A model generated the notes under the pieces. It had not been told where the DNA came from, did not search any database, and saw only the letters and a program-made list of their open reading frames with translations. A stretch of 64,000 bases of DNA from positions 868,001 to 932,000 of the forward strand of contig NZ_SNYO01000002.1 in the NCBI RefSeq assembly GCF_004363095.1. Direction: 5' to 3'. Positions within the stretch are counted from its first letter, which is position 1. Every line of letters starts with the position of its first letter. The DNA is from Actinomycetospora succinea. Its GTDB lineage: Bacteria > Actinomycetota > Actinomycetes > Mycobacteriales > Pseudonocardiaceae. Of the stretch, positions 8,081 to 19,604 are shown one piece after another. Position numbers and translations under genes: made by a program.

Positions 8081-8421
8081 CTGATCACACCCCTGTCCGG
8101 TCCGGCGCCCCCCGGGCGATCCGCGCCGAAGGTTAACGCCGTCCCCGGGGCCACGGATCCGTCCCGCGCCGAGCGGAGCCCCGGTCCGCCGCGCCGCCGT
8201 CCGGCCGTGACGGCGCGAGCGGGTCGCACGCCCCACTGGACACTCAGCGCATCGAGGCGAACCCCGTCCGTCACGATCCTCGCTGGTCACGGGCCCGCGC
8301 CACTATCCACTCACGGGCGCCCCGGCCGACCGTGATCCTTGTGGTCCGCGTACCGTCCGTGAACCATACGGAGAACACACGGGCCCGGATGGGCGCCCGG
8401 TTCGAGGAGGGGTACGGCATC
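8081..8421. other. 341-bp divergent intergenic region between kinase and LuxR-type regulator
   Basis: Holds no convincing gene. It must carry the promoters of the kinase (minus) and of the regulator (plus). An imperfect inverted repeat, TCCGTGAACCATACGGA, lies about 8354-8370, upstream of the regulator start, and GAGGAGGGG at 8404-8412 is the regulator's ribosome site. I see no copy of the GTCATGAG..CTACTC repeat found further along the block. Confidence 0.5.
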
Positions 8422-11076
8422 ATGCCGGAGCTCTGGCCGCTGGTCGGACGCTCCGAGACGCTGTCCTCGATCGTCCATCTCGCCCAGACCCGGCAGTGCG
8501 CCGGCGTCATGCTCGTTGGTCCACCCGGCGTCGGTCGCACCCGCCTGGCGCGCGCGACCCTGGCCGCGGTGGTCACCACGGAAAGTGCCCGTTGGTCGCC
8601 CGTCTGGGTGATGGCGAGCCGCTCCACCCAGGACATCCCGCTCGGCGCGATGAGCCATCTCCTGCCCCGCATGGACGCCCCGCCGGACGGCGAGACGGGC
8701 CTGACCGGTCATCTGCTGCACGCCGCGCGGCTCGCCCTGCGCCCGGAGCCCGGCGCGGGCCAGCTCATCCTCGCCGTGGACGACGCGCACGTCCTCGACA
8801 CGACCTCGGCGGTGCTGCTCCACCAGCTCGCCGTCTCCGGCGACGCCTTCCTCGTCATCACCGCCCCGGCCGGGCTCACCCTCCCGGACCCGATCTTCGC
8901 CCTCTGGAAGGAGGGGCTGATCGACCGCCTCGACATCCAGGAGTTCGACCGCGTCCAGAGCGACCAGCTGGTCGCCCGGGCCCTCGGCGGGCACGTGGAC
9001 GGGGCGGCCCTCCTGCGGCTGTGGCGGTACTCGCTGGGCAACGCGCTCTTCCTGCGCGAGATCGTCGACGGCGCGCGGGAGGACGGCACGCTGCGCCAGA
9101 CCGGGGCGGTGTGGCGGTGGGAGGGCGAGTTCACGCCCTCCGCGCGCCTGGTGGAGATGGTCGAGGCGCGGATGGGCTCGCTGGCGGCGCCCGAGCGCGA
9201 CCTGCTGGGTCTGCTCGCGTTCGGCCAGCCGCTGGGCAGCGAGGTGGCGGCCGAGCTCGTCTCGCCCTCGGTGCTCGCGACGCTGGAGCGCCGGGAGCTC
9301 GTCGAGTCGGTCCGCGAGGGGCGCCGGGTCAACGTCCGCCTCCGGCACCCCCTCTACGCCGAGATCCTGCGCCAGCAGGCCACCCCGCTGCAGGAGCGCC
9401 AGGCGTACCACCGCCTCACCCGCGCGATGGAGGCCCACGGCACCCGGCGCGGCGAGGACCGCAGCCGGCTGCTCGGGTTCCGCATCGGCCAGGGCGAGGA
9501 GGCCGACGCCCACGAGCTGCTCGCCGCCGCCCGGGACGCGGCCGCCGCCGACGCCGGGCTCGCCGACCAGCTGCTGCGCGCCGCCGCGGACTCCGGCGGG
9601 ACCGTCGACGTGCGCCACCAGCTGGCCCGCGCCCTGGTCGCGGCGGACCGCTTCGACGAGGCCGAGGCGGTGCTGGCCGAGGTCGCCACGCGGCCGGAGA
9701 TGGCCTCGGCCCCGCCCGCCCAGCTCGTGGCCTCGGCGCTCATCCGCGTGCCGAACGCCTACTGGGGCCTGCACGACGTCGTCGGCACCCGCGACGTCCT
9801 GCACGCGCTCGAGCGCACGATCCCCGGCGGCTCCGCCCCGGCCGGCGAGGCCTGGCTGCGGGCCGTGGTGTCACTGCTCGACGGCCGGCCCCGCGCGGCC
9901 CTCGAGCGCCTCGAGCCGCTGATCGCCGACGACAGCGGGGATCCCGGGATCCACGTCGCCGCCCTGTCGGTCGCCGCGTTCGCGAGCGCCCGGGCCGGCG
10001 CCCTGGGGCGCGCCCGCGACCTCGTCGCGCGGGGCCTGCCGATGATCGAGCGCGACGGCGACCCGAGCGGCGGCTGGCTGCGCTTCCAGTTCCTCACGGC
10101 GTCGTGGTCCGCGGACCTGCAGGCCGGCGAGCTGGACCGGGCCGAGAAGCTCGCCCGCGACTGCTACGCGGAGGCGCTGGCCCAGGGCCTGCGCACGCCG
10201 ATGGCCATCTACGCCACGTGGCAGGGGATCGTGGCGGCACGCCGGGGACGGGTCCAGTCCGCCGCGCGCTGGCTGCGGGAGGCGGCGGCGGCCGTGTCCG
10301 CGTCGCGCTTCTGCTTCGCCGTCCCGCTGGCCGCCGAGCTGTCGACGGTGCTGGCCACGTCCGGGGAGCTCGCCGAGGCGCGCACGGTGCTGGCCGCCGC
10401 CGACGACGTCCCCGGCGGGGGCCTGTTCGCGGGGTGGCAGACCGCCGCCCACGTGTGGCTCCTCGGCGTCGAGGGCCGGGTGTCGGCCGCGACGGAGACG
10501 GCGGTCGCCGCGGTCGCCGCCACCGAGGACCCGGGGCACCTGCTGCAGACCCTGCACACGGTGGTCCGCGTGCGCGCCATCGGTGTGGTGGCCGACGAGC
10601 TCGAGGTCCTGGCCGCCGACCTCGACGGTGCGTGGCCGGCCCTCGTCGTCGACCACGCCCGGGGTCTCAGCACGCGCGACGGCGCCGCCCTGGACGAGGT
10701 CGCCGCCCGCTTCGAGCAGCTCGGGTCCCTGCTGCTGGCCGCCGAGGTCGCGGCCCAGGCCTCCGCGGTGCACCGGTCGGACGGCAGCACCGCGGCCGCG
10801 CGGGCGTCCGCGGCGCGGGCGCGGGCCTGGGCCGGGGAGTGCGAGGAGGCGCGGACCCCGGCGCTCGGGCTCCTCGAGGCGTCGACCGAGCTGACGCGCC
10901 GCGAGCTGGAGATCGCCTCGCTGGCCGCCACCGGCCTGACGAGCAAGGCGATCGCCGAGCAGCTGGTCGTCTCGGTCCGCACCGTGGACAACGTGCTCCG
11001 CGCGGTCTACGCGAAGCTCGGCGTGTCCGGGCGCGGGGAGCTCTCGCAGGTGGCGGGCCTGCACGTCGCCCGCTGA
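8422..11076 (+). CDS. LuxR-family (LAL/MalT-like) ATPase transcriptional regulator, IniR-like
   Basis: 884 residues. An N-terminal P-loop ATPase: Walker A GPPGVGRT at 33-40, where the usual lysine is arginine, and Walker B LILAVDDAH around 115-122; a long helical TPR-like middle; and a C-terminal LuxR helix-turn-helix at about 824-884 (LTRRELEIASLAATG..SVRTVDNVLRAVYAKLGV). Such proteins turn on operons after binding a ligand and ATP. Start ATG 8422 has GAGGAGGGG 9 nt upstream. Its place beside the dynamin operon matches mycobacterial IniR beside iniBAC (Rv0339c beside Rv0341-Rv0343), so I take it as the likely regulator of the block; this is inference from context. It runs convergent with the Hsp70-like gene, 13 bp apart. 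Confidence 0.9.
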   Translation: MPELWPLVGRSETLSSIVHLAQTRQCAGVMLVGPPGVGRTRLARATLAAVVTTESARWSPVWVMASRSTQDIPLGAMSHLLPRMDAPPDGETGLTGHLLHAARLALRPEPGAGQLILAVDDAHVLDTTSAVLLHQLAVSGDAFLVITAPAGLTLPDPIFALWKEGLIDRLDIQEFDRVQSDQLVARALGGHVDGAALLRLWRYSLGNALFLREIVDGAREDGTLRQTGAVWRWEGEFTPSARLVEMVEARMGSLAAPERDLLGLLAFGQPLGSEVAAELVSPSVLATLERRELVESVREGRRVNVRLRHPLYAEILRQQATPLQERQAYHRLTRAMEAHGTRRGEDRSRLLGFRIGQGEEADAHELLAAARDAAAADAGLADQLLRAAADSGGTVDVRHQLARALVAADRFDEAEAVLAEVATRPEMASAPPAQLVASALIRVPNAYWGLHDVVGTRDVLHALERTIPGGSAPAGEAWLRAVVSLLDGRPRAALERLEPLIADDSGDPGIHVAALSVAAFASARAGALGRARDLVARGLPMIERDGDPSGGWLRFQFLTASWSADLQAGELDRAEKLARDCYAEALAQGLRTPMAIYATWQGIVAARRGRVQSAARWLREAAAAVSASRFCFAVPLAAELSTVLATSGELAEARTVLAAADDVPGGGLFAGWQTAAHVWLLGVEGRVSAATETAVAAVAATEDPGHLLQTLHTVVRVRAIGVVADELEVLAADLDGAWPALVVDHARGLSTRDGAALDEVAARFEQLGSLLLAAEVAAQASAVHRSDGSTAAARASAARARAWAGECEEARTPALGLLEASTELTRRELEIASLAATGLTSKAIAEQLVVSVRTVDNVLRAVYAKLGVSGRGELSQVAGLHVAR

Positions 11077-11089
11077 GCACCCGCGGGCG

Positions 11090-12901
11090 TCAGGAGCCGC
11101 TCGCCGAGCCGCCGTCGGTCCCGCCCGAACCGCTCCCGCCGTCGGTGCCGCTGCCCGACGCGCAGCAGTCGGGGGGCGGCGTCGTGTGGGGCGCGCTGGT
11201 GTGCTCCGACGTGCGGCCGTTGTTCCACCCGCCGCCACCGTTGCCACCGCCGGAGCCCCCGGAGCCGCCGGAGTTGCTGGGTGCGCGGCGGGCCTGGCTG
11301 CCCTGCTGGGAGCCGCCCGACGACCCGGCGGGATCCTCGGCGACCGGCGCGGCGGGCGCGACGACCACGGGCGGCGGCGCCACCGACGCCGGGGCCGGCG
11401 CGATCTCCGTGGCGCCGGCCGGCGTGGGCGTGGCGTCGGCCGACGCGACCCGGTAGGCGTAGGTCCCGCCGCCGGCGAGCACCGCCAGCAGTAGCGCCGC
11501 CCCGATGGCCATGGGCACGCGCCGGCGGGGCTTCTTCTCGGGCTCGGAGGACTGCAGCGCGGGTGCCGGCATCCCGGCCGCCGGGGTCCCCACCGGCATC
11601 GACCCGCGGGGCGCACCCGGGCGCGGCCCGTTCTGCAGCATCGCCGTGGTGCCCGCCCCGGCGGCCGCCGGGATCGCCCCGGAGGGCGGGCCGTTCCGCC
11701 GCGGCGGCGGCAGGTGGGTGGGCCGCTGGAACGTGCCCGACGACGGGCCGGTCATGGGGCCGACCATGGTGGTGGCGGCCGCGGCGGTCCGCCGCACCTG
11801 CGGGCCGGTCGACCCGCCGTGGGGGCCGCCGCCGTGGACGTACTCGGTGTGCGCCATGCCGGCCGCCCCGAGGACGATCGCGTGCTTCGGGTGGGCATCG
11901 ACCGCGGTCGGTCGCCCCAGCTCCGCGGACACCATCTGGCTCACGAGCGGGATGCGCGACGAGCCCCCGACGAGCAGGACGGTGGTCAGCTGCTCGGGCT
12001 GCACGCGCGCCGAGTCGAGCGCGCGGCGCAGCGACGCGATCGTCGCCGCGATGGACGGGCGGACCATGTCCTCGAACTCGCCGCGGGTCAGGCGCACCTC
12101 GGTCTGCAGCGAGGGCAGCATCACCGGGATCGTCGTCTCGGTGTCGGCGGAGAGCGCCTCCTTGGCGAGCACGCAGTCCTGGCGCAGGCGGATCACCGCG
12201 CTCGTCGCGCGCGGGTCCGACGGGTCGAGCTCGGACACGGGCCCGCCGAGCACGCGGTCGACGTGGGTGAACACGGCCTCGTCGAAGTCGATGCCACCGA
12301 GGCCCTCGATGCCCTCCGGCGTCCCGAGCAGCTCGAAGCCGTTGCCCGACGTCCGCAGCAGCGTCGCGTCGAAGGTGCCGCCGCCGAGGTCGTAGACGGC
12401 GACGGTCGCGCCGTCCTCCAGGCGCTCGTTGGTGGCGTAGTGGGCCGCGGCCGCCTCCGGCTCGGTGATCATCCGGACGTTGCGGAGACCGGCCTGGCGC
12501 GGGATCTGGTCGAACAGCTCGCGCTTGTACGGGCCCCAGTTCGCGGGGTGGGTCAGGGTCACGACGTCGGGCATCCCGCCCTCGCGCTCGCTCACCGCCC
12601 GGACGACGTCGCCCAGCTGGCGGGCCATGAGGTCGCCGGCCGCGTACGGCGACCCGCCGAGGATCAGCGGCATCGGGTCGCCGAAGCGCCGCTTCACCTC
12701 GCGGGCGACGCGGTCGGGCTCCGAGGCGGCCCGGCGCTCCGCGGCGTCGCCGGTGAGCACGGCGCCGTCCTCGCGGATGAGGATCACCGAGGGCACGGCC
12801 GCGGCGCGGTCCCCGAGGCTGGCCATCTCGACACGGCCGTCCCGGTCGACCGCGGCGGCGGTGAAGGTGGTTCCTAGATCCACGCCGAGTCCGTAGCCCA
12901 C
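11090..12901 (-). CDS. membrane-anchored Hsp70-like protein lacking the substrate-binding domain
   Basis: 603 residues from GTG 12901 (AAGGAG 6 nt upstream). Residues 1-355 form an Hsp70/actin-fold nucleotide-binding domain: GVDLGTTFTAAAV (phosphate 1), VYDLGGGTFDATLL (170-182), TEPEAAAAHYA and LLVGGSSRIPLV (309-320). Instead of a peptide-binding domain there is a Pro-rich linker, a single membrane helix (about 462-484) and a Ser/Gly/Asn-rich outside tail ending in a CC pair. Such proteins are known in actinobacteria, function unclear; an ATP-driven sensor or scaffold in the membrane is plausible. It follows the 321-residue protein by 59 nt and is probably in its operon, behind the shared operator. 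Confidence 0.88.
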   Translation of the reverse strand: MGYGLGVDLGTTFTAAAVDRDGRVEMASLGDRAAAVPSVILIREDGAVLTGDAAERRAASEPDRVAREVKRRFGDPMPLILGGSPYAAGDLMARQLGDVVRAVSEREGGMPDVVTLTHPANWGPYKRELFDQIPRQAGLRNVRMITEPEAAAAHYATNERLEDGATVAVYDLGGGTFDATLLRTSGNGFELLGTPEGIEGLGGIDFDEAVFTHVDRVLGGPVSELDPSDPRATSAVIRLRQDCVLAKEALSADTETTIPVMLPSLQTEVRLTRGEFEDMVRPSIAATIASLRRALDSARVQPEQLTTVLLVGGSSRIPLVSQMVSAELGRPTAVDAHPKHAIVLGAAGMAHTEYVHGGGPHGGSTGPQVRRTAAAATTMVGPMTGPSSGTFQRPTHLPPPRRNGPPSGAIPAAAGAGTTAMLQNGPRPGAPRGSMPVGTPAAGMPAPALQSSEPEKKPRRRVPMAIGAALLLAVLAGGGTYAYRVASADATPTPAGATEIAPAPASVAPPPVVVAPAAPVAEDPAGSSGGSQQGSQARRAPSNSGGSGGSGGGNGGGGWNNGRTSEHTSAPHTTPPPDCCASGSGTDGGSGSGGTDGGSASGS

Positions 12902-12960
12902 CGGAATCTCCTTTCTCTCTCACGCATCGTCGTCTCGGGGTGTCGGCCGGGAACCGCGGT

Positions 12961-13926
12961 CTATACGGCGAGTTCGCTCGCGTCGGGCGGGTCGTTACCG
13001 GCGTCGTCGTGGGTGTCGTGGGTGTCGTGGCCGCCGACGTGCGCATCCGGCGCACCCGTGGTGTCCCCGTGCTCGCCGGGGACGTCGCCGTCGGCGTGCG
13101 GGTCGGGGGCGTCGAGCACGTCGTGGATCGGCTCCGGAGCCTGCGCGGTCGTCGGCACGTCGACCGACGGTGCCGGGACCGGCGCCGGCCCGACAGGGGG
13201 CCTCCACCCGTGATCGTCGGAGGTGTCGTCGGGTGGGGTATCGGGCGGGGCCTCGTCGCCGAGCCCGCTCTCGGGAGCCGGCTCGCTGAGCCCGTTGACG
13301 CTGCGGTCGTAGCTCACGGTGTCGACGGAGAAGCTGCCGTCCGAATTCTCGACGACGTGTACCTGGCCCCGCTCGTGGATGAGCAGGTCGGTCTCGCTCG
13401 CCGGGGGCTCGGGCACCGCGGCGTGGTGGTGCTCCTTGAAGACGTAGTTACGGCCGTCGTCGTCGGAGATGACGAGGTACTGGAAGGCGTCGACGTTGTA
13501 GAGGGCGTCGGCGCCCTCGTTGACCACGACGTCCTGGTACATCTCGACGGTCAGCCACCCGTCGCCGACGCCGTGCGGGTCGAGCACGCGGAACGACTCG
13601 GCGAGGGACGGCGCGTCGCCGGCGGGCGGGACGTCCGGGGTGGTGTGGGCGACGGTCGCCACCGTGGCGCCGTCGACCACCGGGGCACCGCCGGTCTCCG
13701 AGGCCGCGGCCTCGACCGAGGTGCCGACGGCGATGGCCATCCCCAGGCCGGCGCCGGCCTTCGCCGCACGTCGGGCGACCTCGCGGATGTGCGCCGGGGC
13801 GTCGGCCCCGTTCTCCTGCGCGCTGCGCAGCCAGTCCGGGATCACGCCCCGGACGTCGCGCTTCGCCGCCTCCCAGAGATGCGCCGGCATCCCGGGCGGC
13901 ACGGCGCTGGGTGCCCGCGGGGTCAT
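12961..13926 (-). CDS. Asp/His/Pro-rich protein of unknown function in the dynamin block
   Basis: 321 residues from ATG 13926. I recognise no family. Residues 1-70 look helical and basic (HLWEAAKRDVRGVIPDWL, HIREVARRAAKAGAG) with a small-residue stretch GAGLGMAIAVG that could touch a membrane. The middle (about 125-215) looks like a folded domain (DPHGVGDGWLTVEMYQDV, FQYLVISDDDGRNYVFKE). The rest is disordered and rich in D, H, P and G (HDTHDTHDDAGND). The start is preceded by the 20-nt operator at 13957-13976, only 30 nt away. It probably heads a two-gene unit with the Hsp70-like gene. The acidic, His-rich tail recalls the neighbouring Cys/His-rich protein. Confidence 0.75.
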   Translation of the reverse strand: MTPRAPSAVPPGMPAHLWEAAKRDVRGVIPDWLRSAQENGADAPAHIREVARRAAKAGAGLGMAIAVGTSVEAAASETGGAPVVDGATVATVAHTTPDVPPAGDAPSLAESFRVLDPHGVGDGWLTVEMYQDVVVNEGADALYNVDAFQYLVISDDDGRNYVFKEHHHAAVPEPPASETDLLIHERGQVHVVENSDGSFSVDTVSYDRSVNGLSEPAPESGLGDEAPPDTPPDDTSDDHGWRPPVGPAPVPAPSVDVPTTAQAPEPIHDVLDAPDPHADGDVPGEHGDTTGAPDAHVGGHDTHDTHDDAGNDPPDASELAV

Positions 13927-13956
13927 GTCACGAGTCTCGGTCGGGCCGGGCGCGGG

Positions 13957-13976
13957 GTCATGAGCAACCACTACTC
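13957..13976 (-). promoter_or_regulatory. shared inverted repeat operator, copy 1
   Basis: Plus strand reads GTCATGAGCAACCACTACTC. It matches the sites at 17648 and 19514 and lies 30 nt before the ATG of the 321-residue protein. The outer parts GAG..CTC are inverted repeats. Probably the binding site of the block's regulator. Confidence 0.65.
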
Positions 13977-14019
13977 GGTTTCCGGTGCGGCCCGGTGGCG
14001 TCCTGCTCATGGCGGTGGG

Positions 14020-15696
14020 TCACCAGGACCCCAGGGCGCCCACGAGCAGGCCCTCGCAGGTGCGCACCAGGACCCGCGCGGCCTGGCGGACGTCGCGCGC
14101 GGACGCCGGGTGCTCGGCGCGGCGCTGCCACTGGGCGAGCGCCGCGCGCGCCACCCGCTGCATCTCGTTCGGCGAGGTGTGGGGCTCGATCCCGAGGCGC
14201 TGCCAGATCTCGACCCCGCTGCCGCCCAGCAGGCGCTCGGCGGACTCCCGCTCGGCGTCGGTGAGCATGAGGGACCCGACGCGGATGCCGTCGAGGAGGC
14301 GGACCTCGGCGAACTCGTGCGCCCCGGAGGTGACGATCTCGAGGTCGTGCAGCAGGTGCTGCGCGGCGGGCACCGGGTAGCGCTTGATGGTGGCCTCGAC
14401 GGCGAGCAGCGCGGACCGGGCCTTGAGCACCTCGGCGCGCCCGGCGAAGCGGCTGAGCAGCGCCTCGCGCAGCGGCTGCAGGCCGCTGCGGGTGAGCAGC
14501 TCGCGGGACAGCGCGCCCGCCGTGCCCGCGACGCCGGTGTAGCGCAGGCGCACCGAGAGCCGGATGCCGAAGAGCCCGAAGCGGTCGAGGAGCGCGGCGC
14601 GGCGGGCCGGTGACAGGTCGAGGTCGGGCATCTCGCGGTTCGCGAAGCGGTCGGCGGTGAGCAGCATCTGCTCGACGTCGTCCTCGGGCGCCTCGGCCAG
14701 CAGCTCGATGGCCCGGAACTCGTCCTCGCGCAGGGTCGCGGCGGTCGACGCGAGCAGGCCCGCCACCGGCACGACGGTCTGGCACAGCGCCTGCACGCGG
14801 GGGTCGACGCGGTAGCGCTCGGCGACGCGGGCGGCGCTCTCGAGGGCCTCGGGGCGTCCGTGCCCGACCTCGTCCGCGCGGGCCAGCACGCCGAGGGTGT
14901 TGATCGGCCGGCGCTCGGTCGGGTCGTCCCGGAAGGTCTCGAGGAACCGGACGTCGGACGTGTGGATGTGGCGCATCAGGTAGACGACCGCGTCCGCCGT
15001 GCTGGGACCGCCGCCCTGCTCGTTCAGCGCGGACTCGGTGCGCCGGGAGAGCTCGGTGGTCAGCGAGTCCATGCCCGGGGTGTCGATCAGGGTCATCGTC
15101 TTCAGCGAGGGCGAGGGCCAGTCGACGACGAGGCGCTCCACGTCCTGCGCGCGCATCCCGCCCAGGTCGCTGTCGAGCAGCCGCCCCGACGGTCCGGGCG
15201 GCAGCTGGCGCGGCGGACCCTGGCGCGGGTGGGCCGTCACCCGGTAGGTGTGGCCGTCGCGGTACCAGGTCACCACCCGCGTGCACTCGCCCGCGTCGGT
15301 GGCCGCGAGCTCCTGCCCGACCAGCGCGTTGAGCAGCGTCGACTTCCCCGACTTGATCCGGCCGGCGATGGCCACCCGCAGCGGCTCCTCGAGCCGGGCG
15401 GCGGCCGCCTGCAGAGCGGGCTGCGCCGGGCCGCCCGCGTAGATCTCCATGGCCTGCTGGACGAGGCCCCGCACGCGGGTCAGCAACGACGCCGGCGGTG
15501 GCGGGCCCGGTGGGGCGGCCGGCGGGAAGGGAGCCGACGGCGGGAACCCGCGCGCCGGGCCGCCGGGACCGGGCGGCCGGGGTCCGGGGCCTCCGGGCGG
15601 CCCGGGCCCGCGCAGGCCGCCGGGCCCCGGCGGACGTCCGGGTCCCTGGGGCGGGGGTCCGTACGGGCCCGGGCGGGGCCGGTCGCCGCGGTTCAC
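14020..15696 (-). CDS. dynamin-like GTPase, IniC-type
   Basis: 558 residues from GTG 15696, which overlaps the stop of the IniA-like gene (GTGA). Residues 1-70 are almost only Pro, Gly and Arg. The GTPase domain follows: G1 GRIKSGKS (112-119) in AGRIKSGKSTLLNALVG and G3 DTPG (205-208) in LIDTPGMDSL; the G4 motif is ARAD in LGVLARADEVG. The C-terminal half is helical as in dynamins. In mycobacteria iniA and iniC encode paired membrane-remodelling dynamin-like proteins induced by cell-wall drugs; gene order and coupling here are the same. Identity as the IniC partner is from context; the GTPase call is firm. Confidence 0.88.
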   Translation of the reverse strand: MNRGDRPRPGPYGPPPQGPGRPPGPGGLRGPGPPGGPGPRPPGPGGPARGFPPSAPFPPAAPPGPPPPASLLTRVRGLVQQAMEIYAGGPAQPALQAAAARLEEPLRVAIAGRIKSGKSTLLNALVGQELAATDAGECTRVVTWYRDGHTYRVTAHPRQGPPRQLPPGPSGRLLDSDLGGMRAQDVERLVVDWPSPSLKTMTLIDTPGMDSLTTELSRRTESALNEQGGGPSTADAVVYLMRHIHTSDVRFLETFRDDPTERRPINTLGVLARADEVGHGRPEALESAARVAERYRVDPRVQALCQTVVPVAGLLASTAATLREDEFRAIELLAEAPEDDVEQMLLTADRFANREMPDLDLSPARRAALLDRFGLFGIRLSVRLRYTGVAGTAGALSRELLTRSGLQPLREALLSRFAGRAEVLKARSALLAVEATIKRYPVPAAQHLLHDLEIVTSGAHEFAEVRLLDGIRVGSLMLTDAERESAERLLGGSGVEIWQRLGIEPHTSPNEMQRVARAALAQWQRRAEHPASARDVRQAARVLVRTCEGLLVGALGSW

Positions 15697-17597
15697 GTCA
15701 CGGCCTTCACGGGTGCGGCGGCGGCCGGCGCGGGGCCGCCCGACAGCCCGCCCGCGCGGGTGCGCTCGAGGTGCGCGGAGAGGTCCTCCACGCGCGCCAT
15801 GAGGCTGGCCAGGGACTGGAGGTCGGTCTCGGCGCGCGACCGGGCACCGACGTCGGACTCGCTGCTCTTGGCGGCCTCCTGGGCCGCGGCGAGCGCCTCG
15901 GTCGACGAGCGCTGGAGCTCGGACACCCGCTGCGACCAGGCGTTGCGGAGCTCGCGCTGCACGTGGCGGATCGCGTCGCGCGAGTCCTTGCCGAAGTGCA
16001 TGTTGAACTCGTCCACGAACCGGCGCACCGCGGTCTTCGCCTCGGAGCGGCGCTTCTCGAGGGCCCGCTTCTGCTCCTCCTTCCACCCCATCCGGCCGAG
16101 CAGCAGGCCCGGGATGACGCCCAGGCCCAACGGCACCGGCAGCCCGGTCAGGCTCATCAGCATGTTGAACATGAGGAAGCCGCTGTAGGACTTCTGGAAC
16201 GCGGCCATCCCGGCGCCCTTCGCCTTCTTCTCGGCGAAGGTGGCGTCGGCCTTGAGGCCGTCGAGCAGCTCGACGGGCGCCGCCACCTCGCGGGCGCGCA
16301 CCACCTGCGACTCGGCGATGTCGAAGTGCTGGCCGACCGCGATGGCGACCTCCTTAGCCCGGTTCACGAACATGGCGTAGTTCTCCAGCGCCTCCCCGGC
16401 CAGCCGCTGCCGGAGCCACGCCTCGAACTCCTCCCAGTTCTTCCCGGGGTCGCCGTTGTCGATCGACTGCTCGGCCTCGTGGACCACGATCCGCGTGCGC
16501 TGGCGGAGGTCGAAGTCGATGTCGGACGAGATGTCGGCGAACCCGTCCTGGAGCACCGACTGCCACTTGGACGAGCGCTCGCGCAGCGCGTCGGCCTGCT
16601 CCTTGGCGCGCGTGAGCTCACCGACGAGCGCCGCGGACCGCTTCGGGTCGGCCAGGGCGGCCAGCCGGGCGCGCGCCACGACCTCCATCTGCTCGACGGC
16701 GGAGCGCACGTGCGTGATCGCCGCGTCGAGGGCGAGCTTCTCGCCGCCGGCGACGATCTCGTTGATGTTCGAGATCAGCGCGGGGAAGCCGGACTCGTTG
16801 TTGAGGTCCTTGCTCATCGTGCTGGCCGCCAGCGAGCGGATCTCCGACGACACCGCGAGCGACTCGATCTCGATCCCCGCCCGCTGCAGGTGCTGCCGGT
16901 CGCGCTCGAGCATGCGGTCCGAGTGCGGGTACAGGTCGGTCTTGGTCAGCACGAACAGGACGGTCGGGCACAGCTCCTTCACGGTCCGCAGGAACGACAT
17001 CTCGCTGTCGGTCAGCTCCTGGGAGCAGTCGCTGACGAAGAGCACGGCGTGGGACCGGGGCAGCGAGCTGATCGTCGACGCGTTCGACCCGGACCCGATG
17101 CCGCCCACGCCGGGCGTGTCCACCAGGACGAGGCCGTTGGAGAGGATCGGGCGGTCGAGCCCGACGGTGACGCGGCGCAGGTTGCGGCTGTTGCCGGGGT
17201 TGCCGAACTCGGAGGCGTACTGGGGGACGTCCGACGGCGCGATCGTCTCGTTCCAGCCGGCGCCCGAGGCGCCCGAGGCGGGTTCGAAGACCGCGCTCGC
17301 GGACAGGCTCTTGGCGTAGCGCACCTCGGTGAGGACCGCGGTCGCCACGTCGTCGTCCACCGGGCAGATGGGCGCGCTCAGCATGGCGTTGATCAGGGAG
17401 CTCTTGCCCTGCTTGAACTCGCCGACGACGTGCACCGTGATCGAGGCGTCGCTCAGGATCTGCTTGGCGCCTTTGAGCCGCGCGACCAGGTCGTCGCGCT
17501 CGTAGGCCTGCGCGCCCTTGATCGCCATGTCGATCGTCTCGGTGGCGTGGCGCGCAGCGGCGCTCTGCTTCTGCTGTTGCTGCTGCTGGACCGCCAT
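15693..17597 (-). CDS. dynamin-like GTPase, IniA-type
   Basis: 634 residues, near the length of mycobacterial IniA (640). After a Gln-rich start come G1 GEFKQGKSS (59-67), G3 DTPGVGG (160-166) and G4 TKTD (218-221), then long helical bundle segments, a hydrophobic stretch near 470-505 (MFNMLMSLTGLPVPLGLG) fit for the membrane-binding paddle, and a C-terminal coiled segment. Bacterial dynamins of this type tether and fuse or repair membranes. GGGGAGAGGAG precedes ATG 17597. The operator at 17648-17667 lies 50 nt upstream, so this gene heads the GTPase operon. No IniB-type Gly/Ala-rich gene is in the operon itself; the repeat protein at 17775-19427 has that position. Confidence 0.9.
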   Translation of the reverse strand: MAVQQQQQQKQSAAARHATETIDMAIKGAQAYERDDLVARLKGAKQILSDASITVHVVGEFKQGKSSLINAMLSAPICPVDDDVATAVLTEVRYAKSLSASAVFEPASGASGAGWNETIAPSDVPQYASEFGNPGNSRNLRRVTVGLDRPILSNGLVLVDTPGVGGIGSGSNASTISSLPRSHAVLFVSDCSQELTDSEMSFLRTVKELCPTVLFVLTKTDLYPHSDRMLERDRQHLQRAGIEIESLAVSSEIRSLAASTMSKDLNNESGFPALISNINEIVAGGEKLALDAAITHVRSAVEQMEVVARARLAALADPKRSAALVGELTRAKEQADALRERSSKWQSVLQDGFADISSDIDFDLRQRTRIVVHEAEQSIDNGDPGKNWEEFEAWLRQRLAGEALENYAMFVNRAKEVAIAVGQHFDIAESQVVRAREVAAPVELLDGLKADATFAEKKAKGAGMAAFQKSYSGFLMFNMLMSLTGLPVPLGLGVIPGLLLGRMGWKEEQKRALEKRRSEAKTAVRRFVDEFNMHFGKDSRDAIRHVQRELRNAWSQRVSELQRSSTEALAAAQEAAKSSESDVGARSRAETDLQSLASLMARVEDLSAHLERTRAGGLSGGPAPAAAAPVKAVT

Positions 17598-17647
17598 GCC
17601 CTCTCCTCTCCCCGTCGGGCACCAGCCTCCGCCGCCCGGGCGTGATC

Positions 17648-17667
17648 GTCATGAGTAGCGACTACTC
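17648..17667 (-). promoter_or_regulatory. shared inverted repeat operator, copy 2
   Basis: GTCATGAGTAGCGACTACTC on the plus strand. This is the most symmetrical copy: CATGAGTAG and CTACTCATG are perfect 9-bp arms around CGA (17650-17670). It lies between the repeat-protein stop and the IniA-like start, so it acts on the dynamin operon. Confidence 0.75.
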
Positions 17668-17774
17668 ATGTCTGTCGATGGTTCCTGCCGGCGCACCGGG
17701 CCCCGGGCGCACGACGGTCCGGCACGGTCGCGAGGACCGTGCCGGACCGTTCGTGCCGGGCGCCCCGGCGTGGG

Positions 17775-19427
17775 TCAGCCGTCGGCCGAGTCCGACCCGC
17801 CGCCGCCGTCCGAGCCGCCGCCGTCGTGACCGCCGCCGCTCGAGCCGCCGTCGTGACCGCCGCCGCTCGACTCGAAGCCGCCGCCGCCGTGCTCGAACCC
17901 ACCGTCGTCGGAGCCGCCCGAGTGGCTGCTGCCGCCGGAGCCCACCGACTCGAGGACGGGCTCCTCCTGCTGCTGCTCCTCGAAGCCACCCGACGACGGC
18001 GAGTCGTCGATCGGCTCCGGGGTCGACGTGCCGGTGTCGCCACCGTTGCCGCTGCCGTGGAAGACCAGGCCGCCGTCCTCGTTCGACTCGGACTCGGGCG
18101 CCTGGTCGACGCCGCCCGCTCCGCCAAAGGGGTCGTCGTCGGGGAACGGGCTGGTCTGCACCGGCTCGTCGATGCCGCCCGTCGGGTCGGGCTCGTCGAT
18201 CCCGCCCGTGGGGTCGGGCTGGGGCTCGTCGATGCCACCCGTCGGGTCGGGCTCGTCGATGCCGCCCGTGGGGTCGGGCTGGGGCTCGTCGATCCCGCCC
18301 GTCGGGTCGGGCTGCGGCTCGTCGATGCCACCCGTGGGGTCGGTCGGCGTCGTCTCCCCGGTGTCGGGCGGGGTCGTCTCGCCCGTGTCGGGCGGGGTCG
18401 TCTCCCCGGTGTCGGGCGGGGTCGTCTCGCCCGTGTCGGGCGGGGTCGTCTCGCCCGTGTCGGGCGGGGTCGTCTCGCCCGTGTCCGGCGGGGTCGTCTC
18501 GCCCGTGTCGGGCGGGGTCGTCTCGCCCGTGTCCGGCGGGGTCGTCTCGCCCGTGTCCGGCGGGGTCGTCTCGCCCGTGTCCGGCGGGGTCGTCTCGCCC
18601 GTGTCCGGCGGGGTCGTCTCACCCGTGTCCGGCGGGGTCGTCTCGCCACCGGTGCCCGGCCACGGCTCGGGCTCGGGCGCGCCCGGCGTGGGCGTGGGCA
18701 TGCCCTCGTCGTCGATCGGCGGCATCGGCGGGACGTGCGGCGGCGGGGTCGGGTGCGGGTGGGTCTGGTACCAGTCGTCCGGGTCCGGGCACCCCTCCGG
18801 CCGCGGCGCGTCCGGGCAGTAGTCCGGGTTGTAGCCCTCGGGGCAGTGCACCGGGTGGTAGCACTCCGGGTTGTAGTGCGGGTGCCAGCAGTACGGGTTG
18901 TGGATCGGGTGGAAGCCCCACTGGTTGTGGACCTCGTGGTAGCAGTGCGGGTTCCACACCGGGTCGTACTCGTACGGGTCGCAGTAGTGACCCGAGGGCT
19001 CGAGGTTGTCGTACAGGTACCCGCAGTCGGGCGGGCAGTACGTCGCGTGCATCGGGCAGTTGTAGTCACGGGGCAGGCAGCCCTGCTCGACGTACGTGGC
19101 GCAGCTGTCGTAGGGCGGGCACTCGGGCTTGATGTCGCCCTCGCCCGACGGGTACGGGTAGGTGGGCCACCCGGGGTCGGTGTCGTCCGGGTCCGTGCTG
19201 TCGTCCGGAGGGGTCGTGCCGTCGTCCGGCGGGGTCGTCCCGTCGTCCGGAGGGGTCGTCCCGTCGTCCGGAGGGGTGGTGCCGTCGTCCGGAGGGGTCG
19301 TCCCGTCGTCCGGAGGGATCGGGGCGGGCGTGTCGCCGCCGGCCGGGGGCACGGTGGGGTCGACGTCGCTCGCGGGGTCGCCGGCCGGCTGGGTCGGGAG
19401 GTTCGCGGGGCTCACGGGGATGGTCAT
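17775..19427 (-). CDS. Cys/His/Tyr-rich tandem-repeat protein of unknown function (IniB position)
   Basis: 550 residues from ATG 19427. No family recognised. In order: a Pro/Asp segment with six PPDDGTT units (about 38-79); a striking core at about 103-213 with 13 cysteines and many His, Tyr and Pro (CYHEVHNQWGFHPIHNPYC); a Pro linker; twelve ETTPPDTG units; several GGIDEPQPDPT units; and a Gly/Ser/Asp-rich tail. No signal peptide or membrane helix is evident. The core could bind metal or be cross-linked by disulfides or tyrosines, and the repeats look like wall-spanning spacers; both are inference. It has its own copy of the shared operator 86 nt upstream and precedes the dynamin operon, the place iniB has in mycobacteria. 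Confidence 0.8.
   Translation of the reverse strand: MTIPVSPANLPTQPAGDPASDVDPTVPPAGGDTPAPIPPDDGTTPPDDGTTPPDDGTTPPDDGTTPPDDGTTPPDDSTDPDDTDPGWPTYPYPSGEGDIKPECPPYDSCATYVEQGCLPRDYNCPMHATYCPPDCGYLYDNLEPSGHYCDPYEYDPVWNPHCYHEVHNQWGFHPIHNPYCWHPHYNPECYHPVHCPEGYNPDYCPDAPRPEGCPDPDDWYQTHPHPTPPPHVPPMPPIDDEGMPTPTPGAPEPEPWPGTGGETTPPDTGETTPPDTGETTPPDTGETTPPDTGETTPPDTGETTPPDTGETTPPDTGETTPPDTGETTPPDTGETTPPDTGETTPPDTGETTPPDTGETTPTDPTGGIDEPQPDPTGGIDEPQPDPTGGIDEPDPTGGIDEPQPDPTGGIDEPDPTGGIDEPVQTSPFPDDDPFGGAGGVDQAPESESNEDGGLVFHGSGNGGDTGTSTPEPIDDSPSSGGFEEQQQEEPVLESVGSGGSSHSGGSDDGGFEHGGGGFESSGGGHDGGSSGGGHDGGGSDGGGGSDSADG
18361..18648. repeat. 24-bp coding tandem repeat, 12 copies
   Basis: Twelve head-to-tail copies of a 24-nt unit beginning gtgtcSggcggggtcgtc on the plus strand, differing mostly at one C/G position and one C/G wobble. 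On the coding (minus) strand each encodes ETTPPDTG. The near identity at synonymous sites points to recent expansion by slippage or unequal crossing-over. Confidence 0.95.
19200..19325. repeat. 21-bp coding tandem repeat, 6 copies
   Basis: Six copies of a 21-nt unit (gtcgtccggaggggtcgtSCC on the plus strand), the sixth diverged at its end. It encodes PPDDGTT in the N-terminal part of the repeat protein. Confidence 0.92.
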
Positions 19428-19513: not shown

Positions 19514-19534
19514 GTCATGAGCAGCGCACTACTC
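19514..19534 (-). promoter_or_regulatory. shared inverted repeat operator, copy 3
   Basis: Plus strand GTCATGAGCAGCG then CACTACTC, one base longer in the middle than the other two copies. GATGAC follows, so GTCAT and ATGAC frame the site symmetrically (19514-19540). It lies 86 nt before the start of the Cys/His-rich repeat protein. Confidence 0.68.
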
Positions 19535-19604
19535 GATGACCACCGCGGTTGCTCGGGGATTACTCGGTCCCGGGCGACGAACGCCCGGCGACCCGGTCCG
19601 GGGA

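Follow-up and report, generated by a model that had tools for sequence, protein, structure and literature searches.

A probable side branch of the iniBAC-type membrane-remodelling system in Actinomycetospora succinea, with a membrane-anchored Hsp70-like protein beside its dynamins

Results

The window analysed here, a stretch of 64,000 nucleotides (C2:868001-932000) of the 6.47 Mb genome of Actinomycetospora succinea, carries at positions 8332-19427 a gene set in which two dynamin-like GTPases of the IniA and IniC types lie together with an Hsp70-like protein, a LuxR-type regulator and two proteins of unusual composition, termed OrfP and OrfD. The parts were assigned by Pfam, NCBIfam and PDB searches along with reading of the frames. 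On the minus strand the gene order is OrfP, IniA, IniC, OrfD and Hsp70, and the regulator is encoded on the plus strand, convergent with the Hsp70 gene and separated from it by 13 bp. A sequence-only reading of this DNA had described an ATPase regulator of the LuxR type, an Hsp70 domain with a membrane anchor, a coupled pair of dynamins and two unusual proteins, and this content of the locus is confirmed. The IniA-type GTPase (15693..17597, minus strand) and the IniC-type GTPase (14020..15696, minus strand) both match Dynamin_N, and the GTG start of the IniC-type gene overlaps the stop of the IniA-type gene by 4 bp. In the IniA-type protein the GxxxxGKS, DTPG and TKTD motifs were recognised by eye, and the PDB search matched it to the solved IniA structure (6j72) at E 1.7e-103.

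The Hsp70-like protein (11090..12901, minus strand), assigned by Pfam Hsp70 and hydropathy, is composed of a nucleotide-binding domain (NBD), a Pro-rich linker, the sequence KKPRRR, one transmembrane (TM) helix and a Ser/Gly/Thr-rich tail. Its NBD shares with DnaK all seven ATP-site residues that were checked. Unlike DnaK, it bears a TM helix and lacks the substrate-binding domain by comparison with the Pfam Hsp70 profile, the match to which stops at position 372 of 599, whereas that of DnaK from the same genome reaches 598. True DnaK proteins score 690-708 bits against this DnaK, and the remaining Hsp70 rows, the window protein included, at most 136. The regulator (8332..11076, plus strand; start codon uncertain, perhaps further downstream) consists of an AAA_16/STAND ATPase (AAA_16 at residues 36-168), a middle region and a C-terminal GerE/LuxR helix-turn-helix (HTH, residues 853-907). 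With an N-terminal AAA/STAND ATPase and a C-terminal LuxR HTH in one long protein, it has the architecture of the LAL (large ATP-binding LuxR) family.

The dynamin pair had also been placed inside a larger set, and the neighbourhoods of IniA in other genomes bear this out. In an order sample, IniA was sought in 200 genomes, 101 of which had a match at E 1e-10, and the strong loci along with some weaker ones were fetched; a named set comprised the best 80 of 452 confirmed stretches by similarity to the IniA alignment, giving 79 loci. The two sets overlap, L045 and L130 being one locus. For the counts, IniA had to reach at least 500 bits, profiles were built from the loci, true DnaK was excluded, and loci with less than 6 kb upstream or less than 4.5 kb downstream of IniA (6/66 and 25/79) were left out. 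Among the 60 loci of the order sample, IniC adjoins IniA in 59, an Hsp70 gene is found no further than 8 kb from IniA in 58, an open reading frame with a LuxR HTH within the same distance in 56, and an IniB domain is present in 56. The corresponding numbers for the 54 loci of the named set are 53, 52, 51 and 38. The Hsp70-like gene, the LuxR-type regulator and the repeat protein are thus conserved across loci. Moreover, 40 of 296 genomes in a class sample had IniA at E 1e-40; 19 of 21 same-class genomes were read (20 loci, leaving out G293, G349 and two further G279 matches), and Hsp70 was present in the stretch read in 12 of the 13 loci with IniA at 500 bits or more. If the genes were neighbours by chance, for which nothing speaks beyond the single window, a hand calculation predicts an Hsp70 gene within 8 kb in about 2% of loci, the A. 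succinea genome holding eight Hsp70-like loci, DnaK included. With 58 of 60 seen, chance is refuted by the counts and keeps practically no probability; the linkage of Hsp70 and IniA is real. A third dynamin-Hsp70 cluster was seen in the same genome (L040, G000:C7:175-183 kb). Its genes, all in one direction, encode a sigma-70 family factor, an IniC-like dynamin, a Ser/Thr kinase, a small DTDGDG-repeat protein and, as the last two, an IniA-like dynamin and an Hsp70 NBD protein without a TM segment.

Most loci are of what is here called type I, in which an IniB-domain gene precedes IniA, the Hsp70 gene is divergent and a LuxR regulator lies nearby. The nearest Hsp70 is upstream on the opposite strand, with IniB present, in 85 of 145 IniA loci (DnaK not excluded in this count), and there are 82 Hsp70-IniB divergent intergenic regions among the type I loci. 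Type II is formed by 13 loci, i.e. the window and L119-L130, from Actinomycetospora, Pseudonocardia and Amycolatopsis, A. cinnamomea having two copies. The IniB N-terminal domain was found in none of these 13 loci by a --max search at E 0.01 with a hidden Markov model of 12 IniB N-domains. In a quick tree the window IniA falls into a clade of 12 members, all of type II, with a support of 100 in the Shimodaira-Hasegawa-like approximate likelihood ratio test; the closest named IniA among the matches listed is that of Actinomycetospora straminea (L119), 88% identical. Single linkage of the regulators at E 1e-10, after removal of the HTH, yielded clusters of 110 (type I), 13 (type II) and 4 members. 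The window regulator matches type I regulators only at E of about 1e-6 or weaker and mostly over the HTH, and a type II model gives them at most 41 bits, compared with 698-1379 for full type II rows. The closest paralogue in the same genome (C2:320195) is 42% identical and scores 687 bits on that model. On the basis of the cluster, tree and IniB-domain results, the dynamins and the Hsp70 of type II are homologous to those of the ini loci, and the regulator and IniB have been replaced.

The sequence-only reading had called the locus iniBAC-like, and this holds in part. As in the iniBAC-iniR region of Mycobacterium, homologous dynamins of the IniA and IniC types are present with IniA directly followed by IniC, a gene for a low-complexity protein directly precedes IniA, and an ATPase/LuxR regulator lies nearby; an Hsp70-like gene also adjoins the locus in most of the mycobacterial-type loci sampled. 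These are the loci of family f8, taken as mycobacterial from their iniB*-iniB pairs and nearby dnaK, in which Hsp70 usually lies between iniB* and the regulator. In some of them (e.g., L065, L072 and L074) the regulator was seen to be flanked by two Hsp70 NBD proteins, one before it and one directly after it. The window differs in having no IniB domain, a regulator dissimilar outside the HTH and a candidate operator of its own. Its Hsp70 gene lies downstream of IniC and the ATP-site residues are intact, whereas the mycobacterial-type Hsp70 gene is divergent from IniB and the residues are degenerate. In type I loci such as L039 and, in Pseudonocardia, L133 and L140, IniA, IniC, an Hsp70 NBD and a regulator with a LuxR HTH occur as in type II, but with IniB and its divergent Hsp70, a regulator of another family and no GAGTA-N5/6-TACTC dyad.

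That the locus is simply the local iniBAC operon, with an IniR-type regulator, induction by trehalose or cell-wall drugs and the repeat protein as IniB, would agree with the shared dynamins, with the repeat protein gene before IniA and with the regulator architecture (ATPase, middle part, LuxR), which is that described for IniR in the available text of Boot et al. 2017 (PMC5760070). Nevertheless, the IniB domain is missing from all type II loci, and no regulator homologous to IniR was found beside the operon, in the sense of similarity at E 1e-10 outside the HTH to the 110-row type I cluster, mycobacterial-type loci standing in for IniR in this comparison as the set contains no IniR by name. 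Both types also coexist in one genome: A. succinea has a separate iniB-iniA locus with a divergent Hsp70 (L039), and G188 carries the type I locus L046 besides the type II locus L045. A mere local iniBAC operon is therefore an unlikely explanation.

The seven ATP-site residues are kept in all 14 type II Hsp70 rows (13 genes, L045 and L130 being one locus) and in 40 of 103 rows outside the mycobacterial-type group, L079 of family f8 being counted among these 103. According to hydropathy alone, 106 of the 139 non-DnaK rows, all those of type II among them, have a TM segment after the NBD, though a few positives (L159, L163) are rich in Pro, Ala and Val and doubtful. In the tree, the window Hsp70 groups with type II Hsp70s and a pair of orphans from the same genome in a clade of 14 rows (support 99). 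These orphan membrane Hsp70s, L042 (G000:C1) and L041 (G000:C3), are 66% identical to the window protein over 550 residues and 56% over 410, respectively. IniA was absent from the 20 kb read around them, and L041 contains a weak match to the IniC profile.

OrfP (17775..19427, minus strand, by frame reading) stands in the place of IniB. Its 550 residues include 114 Pro, 86 Gly, 73 Thr, 73 Asp, 19 His and 13 Cys and are arranged in PPDDGTT repeats, a CxxHxxxCxxxC module, 9-residue C/G-Y/W-H-P-x-x-N-P-x units, PPDTGETT and DPTGGIDEPQP repeats and a Gly/Ser/Asp tail. C124, H127, C131 and C135 of the module are invariant in the six Actinomycetospora proteins compared. The repeat proteins differ even between close species: the Cys/His 9-residue units and the CxxHxxxCxxxC module occur in Actinomycetospora, FQNQQ/FNQQ-Gly repeats in A. 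cinnamomea and Amycolatopsis, and QVTGPVQVG repeats in P. oroxyli. Neither the repeat proteins of the window, L121, L122, L126 and L129 nor OrfD matched a Pfam family at E<=1. OrfD (12961..13926, alternative start 14010, minus strand) has a helical N-part, a hydrophobic stretch, a predicted beta-rich core and an Asp/His-rich tail. It is clearly homologous in the window, L119, L120 and L121, and the protein at the same place in L122, L123 and L045 shows a TDxxI...ENPDGS pattern with low, non-significant similarity to it. No PDB fold matched the OrfD model at E<=0.001. His-rich tails, on the repeat protein, OrfD or a gene with a dyad outside the locus, were noted in L122 and L123 (repeat protein), L045, L263 and L267 and weakly in the window, against a background of 9 in 117 proteins with at least six His in the last 60 residues; as L119 and L121 have no such tail, it was rejected as a defining trait.

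A palindrome, CATGAGTAG-N3/4-CTACTCATG, lies upstream of OrfP, IniA and OrfD. The perfect form, CATGAGTAG-N3-CTACTCATG, is located in the OrfP-IniA gap (17650..17670), about 50 bp upstream of the IniA start. A second dyad (19516..19537, matrix score 16.1) precedes OrfP by about 90 bp and is accompanied by more GAGTA/TACTC half-sites near 19561, 19608 and 19637; before OrfP the words GAGTA and CTCATGA are conserved in an alignment of six species. The third, a weak dyad (13959..13979, matrix score 13.4), precedes the OrfD-Hsp70 unit, about 30 bp before the ATG at 13926. The strict form, GAGTA-N5/6-TACTC, was found nine times in 9 of the 13 type II loci (258 kb) but not in the 3.10 Mb of the 166 other loci, 40 shuffles per locus giving an expectation of 0.00, and it occurs once in the whole 6.47 Mb genome. 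A matrix built from the nine sites, among them 17650, found at a score of at least 13 only 19516, 17650 and 13959 in the 64 kb, the first and last being outside the training set. At this threshold 12 of the 13 type II loci have a site (18 sites, compared with 9 in the 3.10 Mb of others), and at a score of at least 16 there are 17 type II sites versus one.

In 390 genomes of the family the motif GAGTAGN3-4CTACTCAT gave 36 distinct sites in 35 genomes, the window included, and the reversed-motif control 7 matches. A type II gene stands beside 31 of the 36; the motif itself came from type II loci, and at least four of these (G000, G188, G500, G751) are among the 36. The 31 comprise 27 of 30 loci read, in 8 of which the 3 kb read showed the regulator family only, plus L255 (the type II locus of G188, counted from the earlier locus reading), G751, G765 and G819:C52. 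In G490 three dyads precede the regulator, the repeat gene and an OrfD-like gene. Two of the above eight loci, G532 and G665, were read over 17 kb, in which IniA is absent; the dyad there precedes a gene of the regulator family, a more distant relative (559 and 577 bits), by 107 and 17 bp, respectively. The palindrome common to OrfP, IniA and OrfD supports their co-regulation, and since dyad and type II regulator genes travel together, the regulator is predicted to bind it. For a common type I operator, simple dyad counts in the 82 Hsp70-IniB intergenic regions showed no clear candidate, the best dyad occurring in 6 of them, with up to 4 after mononucleotide shuffling. In G719 a dyad lies 48 bp before the gene of a 361 aa protein with a His/Glu/Asp-rich tail (L267, 8477-9610), possibly an extra member of the regulon.

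As for the flanking genes, the sequence-only reading had included a kinase module. The kinase gene is present (5897-~8128, minus strand, divergent from the regulator) and encodes, according to Pfam, a Ser/Thr kinase with a YVTN beta-propeller, but a homologue was found in only one of the 12 sister loci (L119, A. straminea; the short contigs of L120 and L128 might not show it), so that its membership in the system is unsupported and was rejected. Just upstream of OrfP lies a gene for an LPG_synthase_TM protein (PF03706; 19659-20825, minus strand), which was also seen at the same place in L119 and, by eye, in L125, L127 and L129; because of this recurrence, a link of the locus to membrane lipids is possible. 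A Pfam match to Cornifin was dropped, as it lay in the wrong reading frame.

Discussion

The gene set is best explained as type II, a side branch of the membrane-remodelling system of the iniBAC type in Actinomycetota, and not as iniBAC itself, a view that is held with moderate confidence as a whole, the mechanism included; the earlier interpretation is partly supported. IniA of M. smegmatis cuts membrane tubes in a GTP-dependent manner, as stated in the available text of Wang 2019 (PMC6715688), and the loss of iniAC decreases vesicle release in M. tuberculosis according to the accessible part of a review (PMC11077946). By homology, remodelling of the cell membrane, plausibly during envelope stress, is the expected activity of the dynamin pair of the window. 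Activation of iniBAC by IniR in response to trehalose is reported in the portion of Boot et al. (2017) already cited. The likely function of the type II locus would be stress-induced membrane fission or repair with the Hsp70 as an ATP-driven regulator. An envelope signal would be sensed by the ATPase and middle part of the regulator, and its LuxR domain, bound to the dyads, would switch on the OrfP, IniA-IniC and OrfD-Hsp70 units together. On the cytoplasmic side of the cell membrane, IniA and IniC would then form assemblies that cut or reseal this membrane at the expense of GTP, and a mostly disordered OrfP may serve as their partner or scaffold in the way of IniB.

The Hsp70 would be located on the same membrane and, instead of folding proteins, would spend ATP on regulating or dismantling the assembly of dynamins and OrfP. 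Its ATPase part should face the cytoplasm, because a basic stretch precedes the helix (positive-inside rule), and the protein should not act as a classical chaperone, because the peptide-binding domain is absent. From the ATP-site residues kept in type II and lost in the mycobacterial type, an ATP-dependent regulator or disassembly factor is favoured for the former and a nucleotide-binding sensor for the latter. A true chaperone for the export or folding of the repeat protein or OrfD, serving the dynamins only indirectly, would suit the common dyad and neighbourhood of the Hsp70, OrfD and repeat genes. However, the substrate-binding domain is absent, no signal peptide was recognised in OrfP (judged by eye only) and the Hsp70 remains with IniA in loci without OrfD, which makes such a role rather doubtful.

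Dynamin GTPases together with an Hsp70 and a STAND regulator could also constitute a defence or conflict system against phages. Kaur et al. 2020 (PMC7159879) described, in the sections available, GTPase genes beside Hsp70 in actinobacteria and firmicutes, some of these systems having a second Hsp70 devoid of the peptide-binding domain; the LeoBC/LeoA profiles of PADLOC match the dynamins (best E 2.7e-16), and the repeat proteins change fast between species. Those systems, however, are neighbourhoods of GAP1-N2-type GTPases with GrpE and DnaJ/FNIII proteins, not dynamins, a word that does not occur in the available text of that paper. The Leo profiles probably detect dynamins in general, PADLOC matched no full system but only these profiles to the dynamins, and the gene set is stable over many families. 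A defence function is therefore considered quite improbable.

Several observations weigh against the side branch with this mechanism. Hsp70 is missing in four loci of the order and named sets (L107, L109, L148 and L152), in the stretch read of L212 from the class sample, and in all five loci L213-L217 of family f32 (IniA 309-449 bits), while it is present in both f32 loci with IniA at 271-283 bits. All seven ATP-site residues are kept in none of the 22 mycobacterial-type rows, taken from hand-listed loci, and 33 of the 139 non-DnaK rows, some cut by contig ends, have no TM helix; hence ATP hydrolysis at the membrane is not a universal role. There is no room for OrfD in L125-L129. The structure models of OrfP (pLDDT, the predicted local distance difference test score, 42.5) and of 218 residues of OrfD (48.8, with strands at 125-210 near 60-72) are poor; OrfP is predicted to be mostly disordered. 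Regarding the operator, L127 has no dyad at the threshold of 13, no strict dyad lies beside the C2:320195 paralogue, and five of the 36 sites lie away from type II genes, namely those of G485, G719, G748, G804 (next to what reads like a polyketide synthase gene) and G819:C63 (close to the end of a contig). Moreover, the 31 sites beside type II genes are not all independent, because the motif was derived from some of the same loci.

The sequence-only reading knew of no description of this set, which is nearly right, except that a dnaK-like gene beside iniR of M. smegmatis is in print in the available part of Boot et al. A general statement of the Hsp70-ini association was not found in the literature searched, which reached few subscription papers. 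As far as this literature goes, novelty lies in the linkage as a general feature, in the type II branch with its operator and in the replacement of the regulator and of IniB, whereas the dynamins and the Hsp70 neighbour in one species were already known. A more speculative extension, of low probability, is an actinobacterial cycle resembling that of coats in eukaryotic endocytosis, in which the dynamin pair would cut the membrane, IniB or OrfP would be the scaffold or coat, and the membrane Hsp70 ATPase would strip or recycle it, all under one operator; beside iniB of mycobacteria, the Hsp70 would either have decayed to a sensor that binds nucleotides or have disappeared.

Summarizing, although tuberculosis drugs induce iniBAC and IniA is a membrane-cutting protein, no established dynamin partner was found in the literature searched. 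The conserved pairing with an Hsp70 lacking the substrate domain names a candidate for such a partner, and the decayed ATP site of the mycobacterial-type copies provides a natural contrast for the role of the Hsp70. As the operator occurs once per genome in most carriers (e.g., Actinomycetospora and Amycolatopsis), the regulator, signal and partner would be testable outside pathogens.

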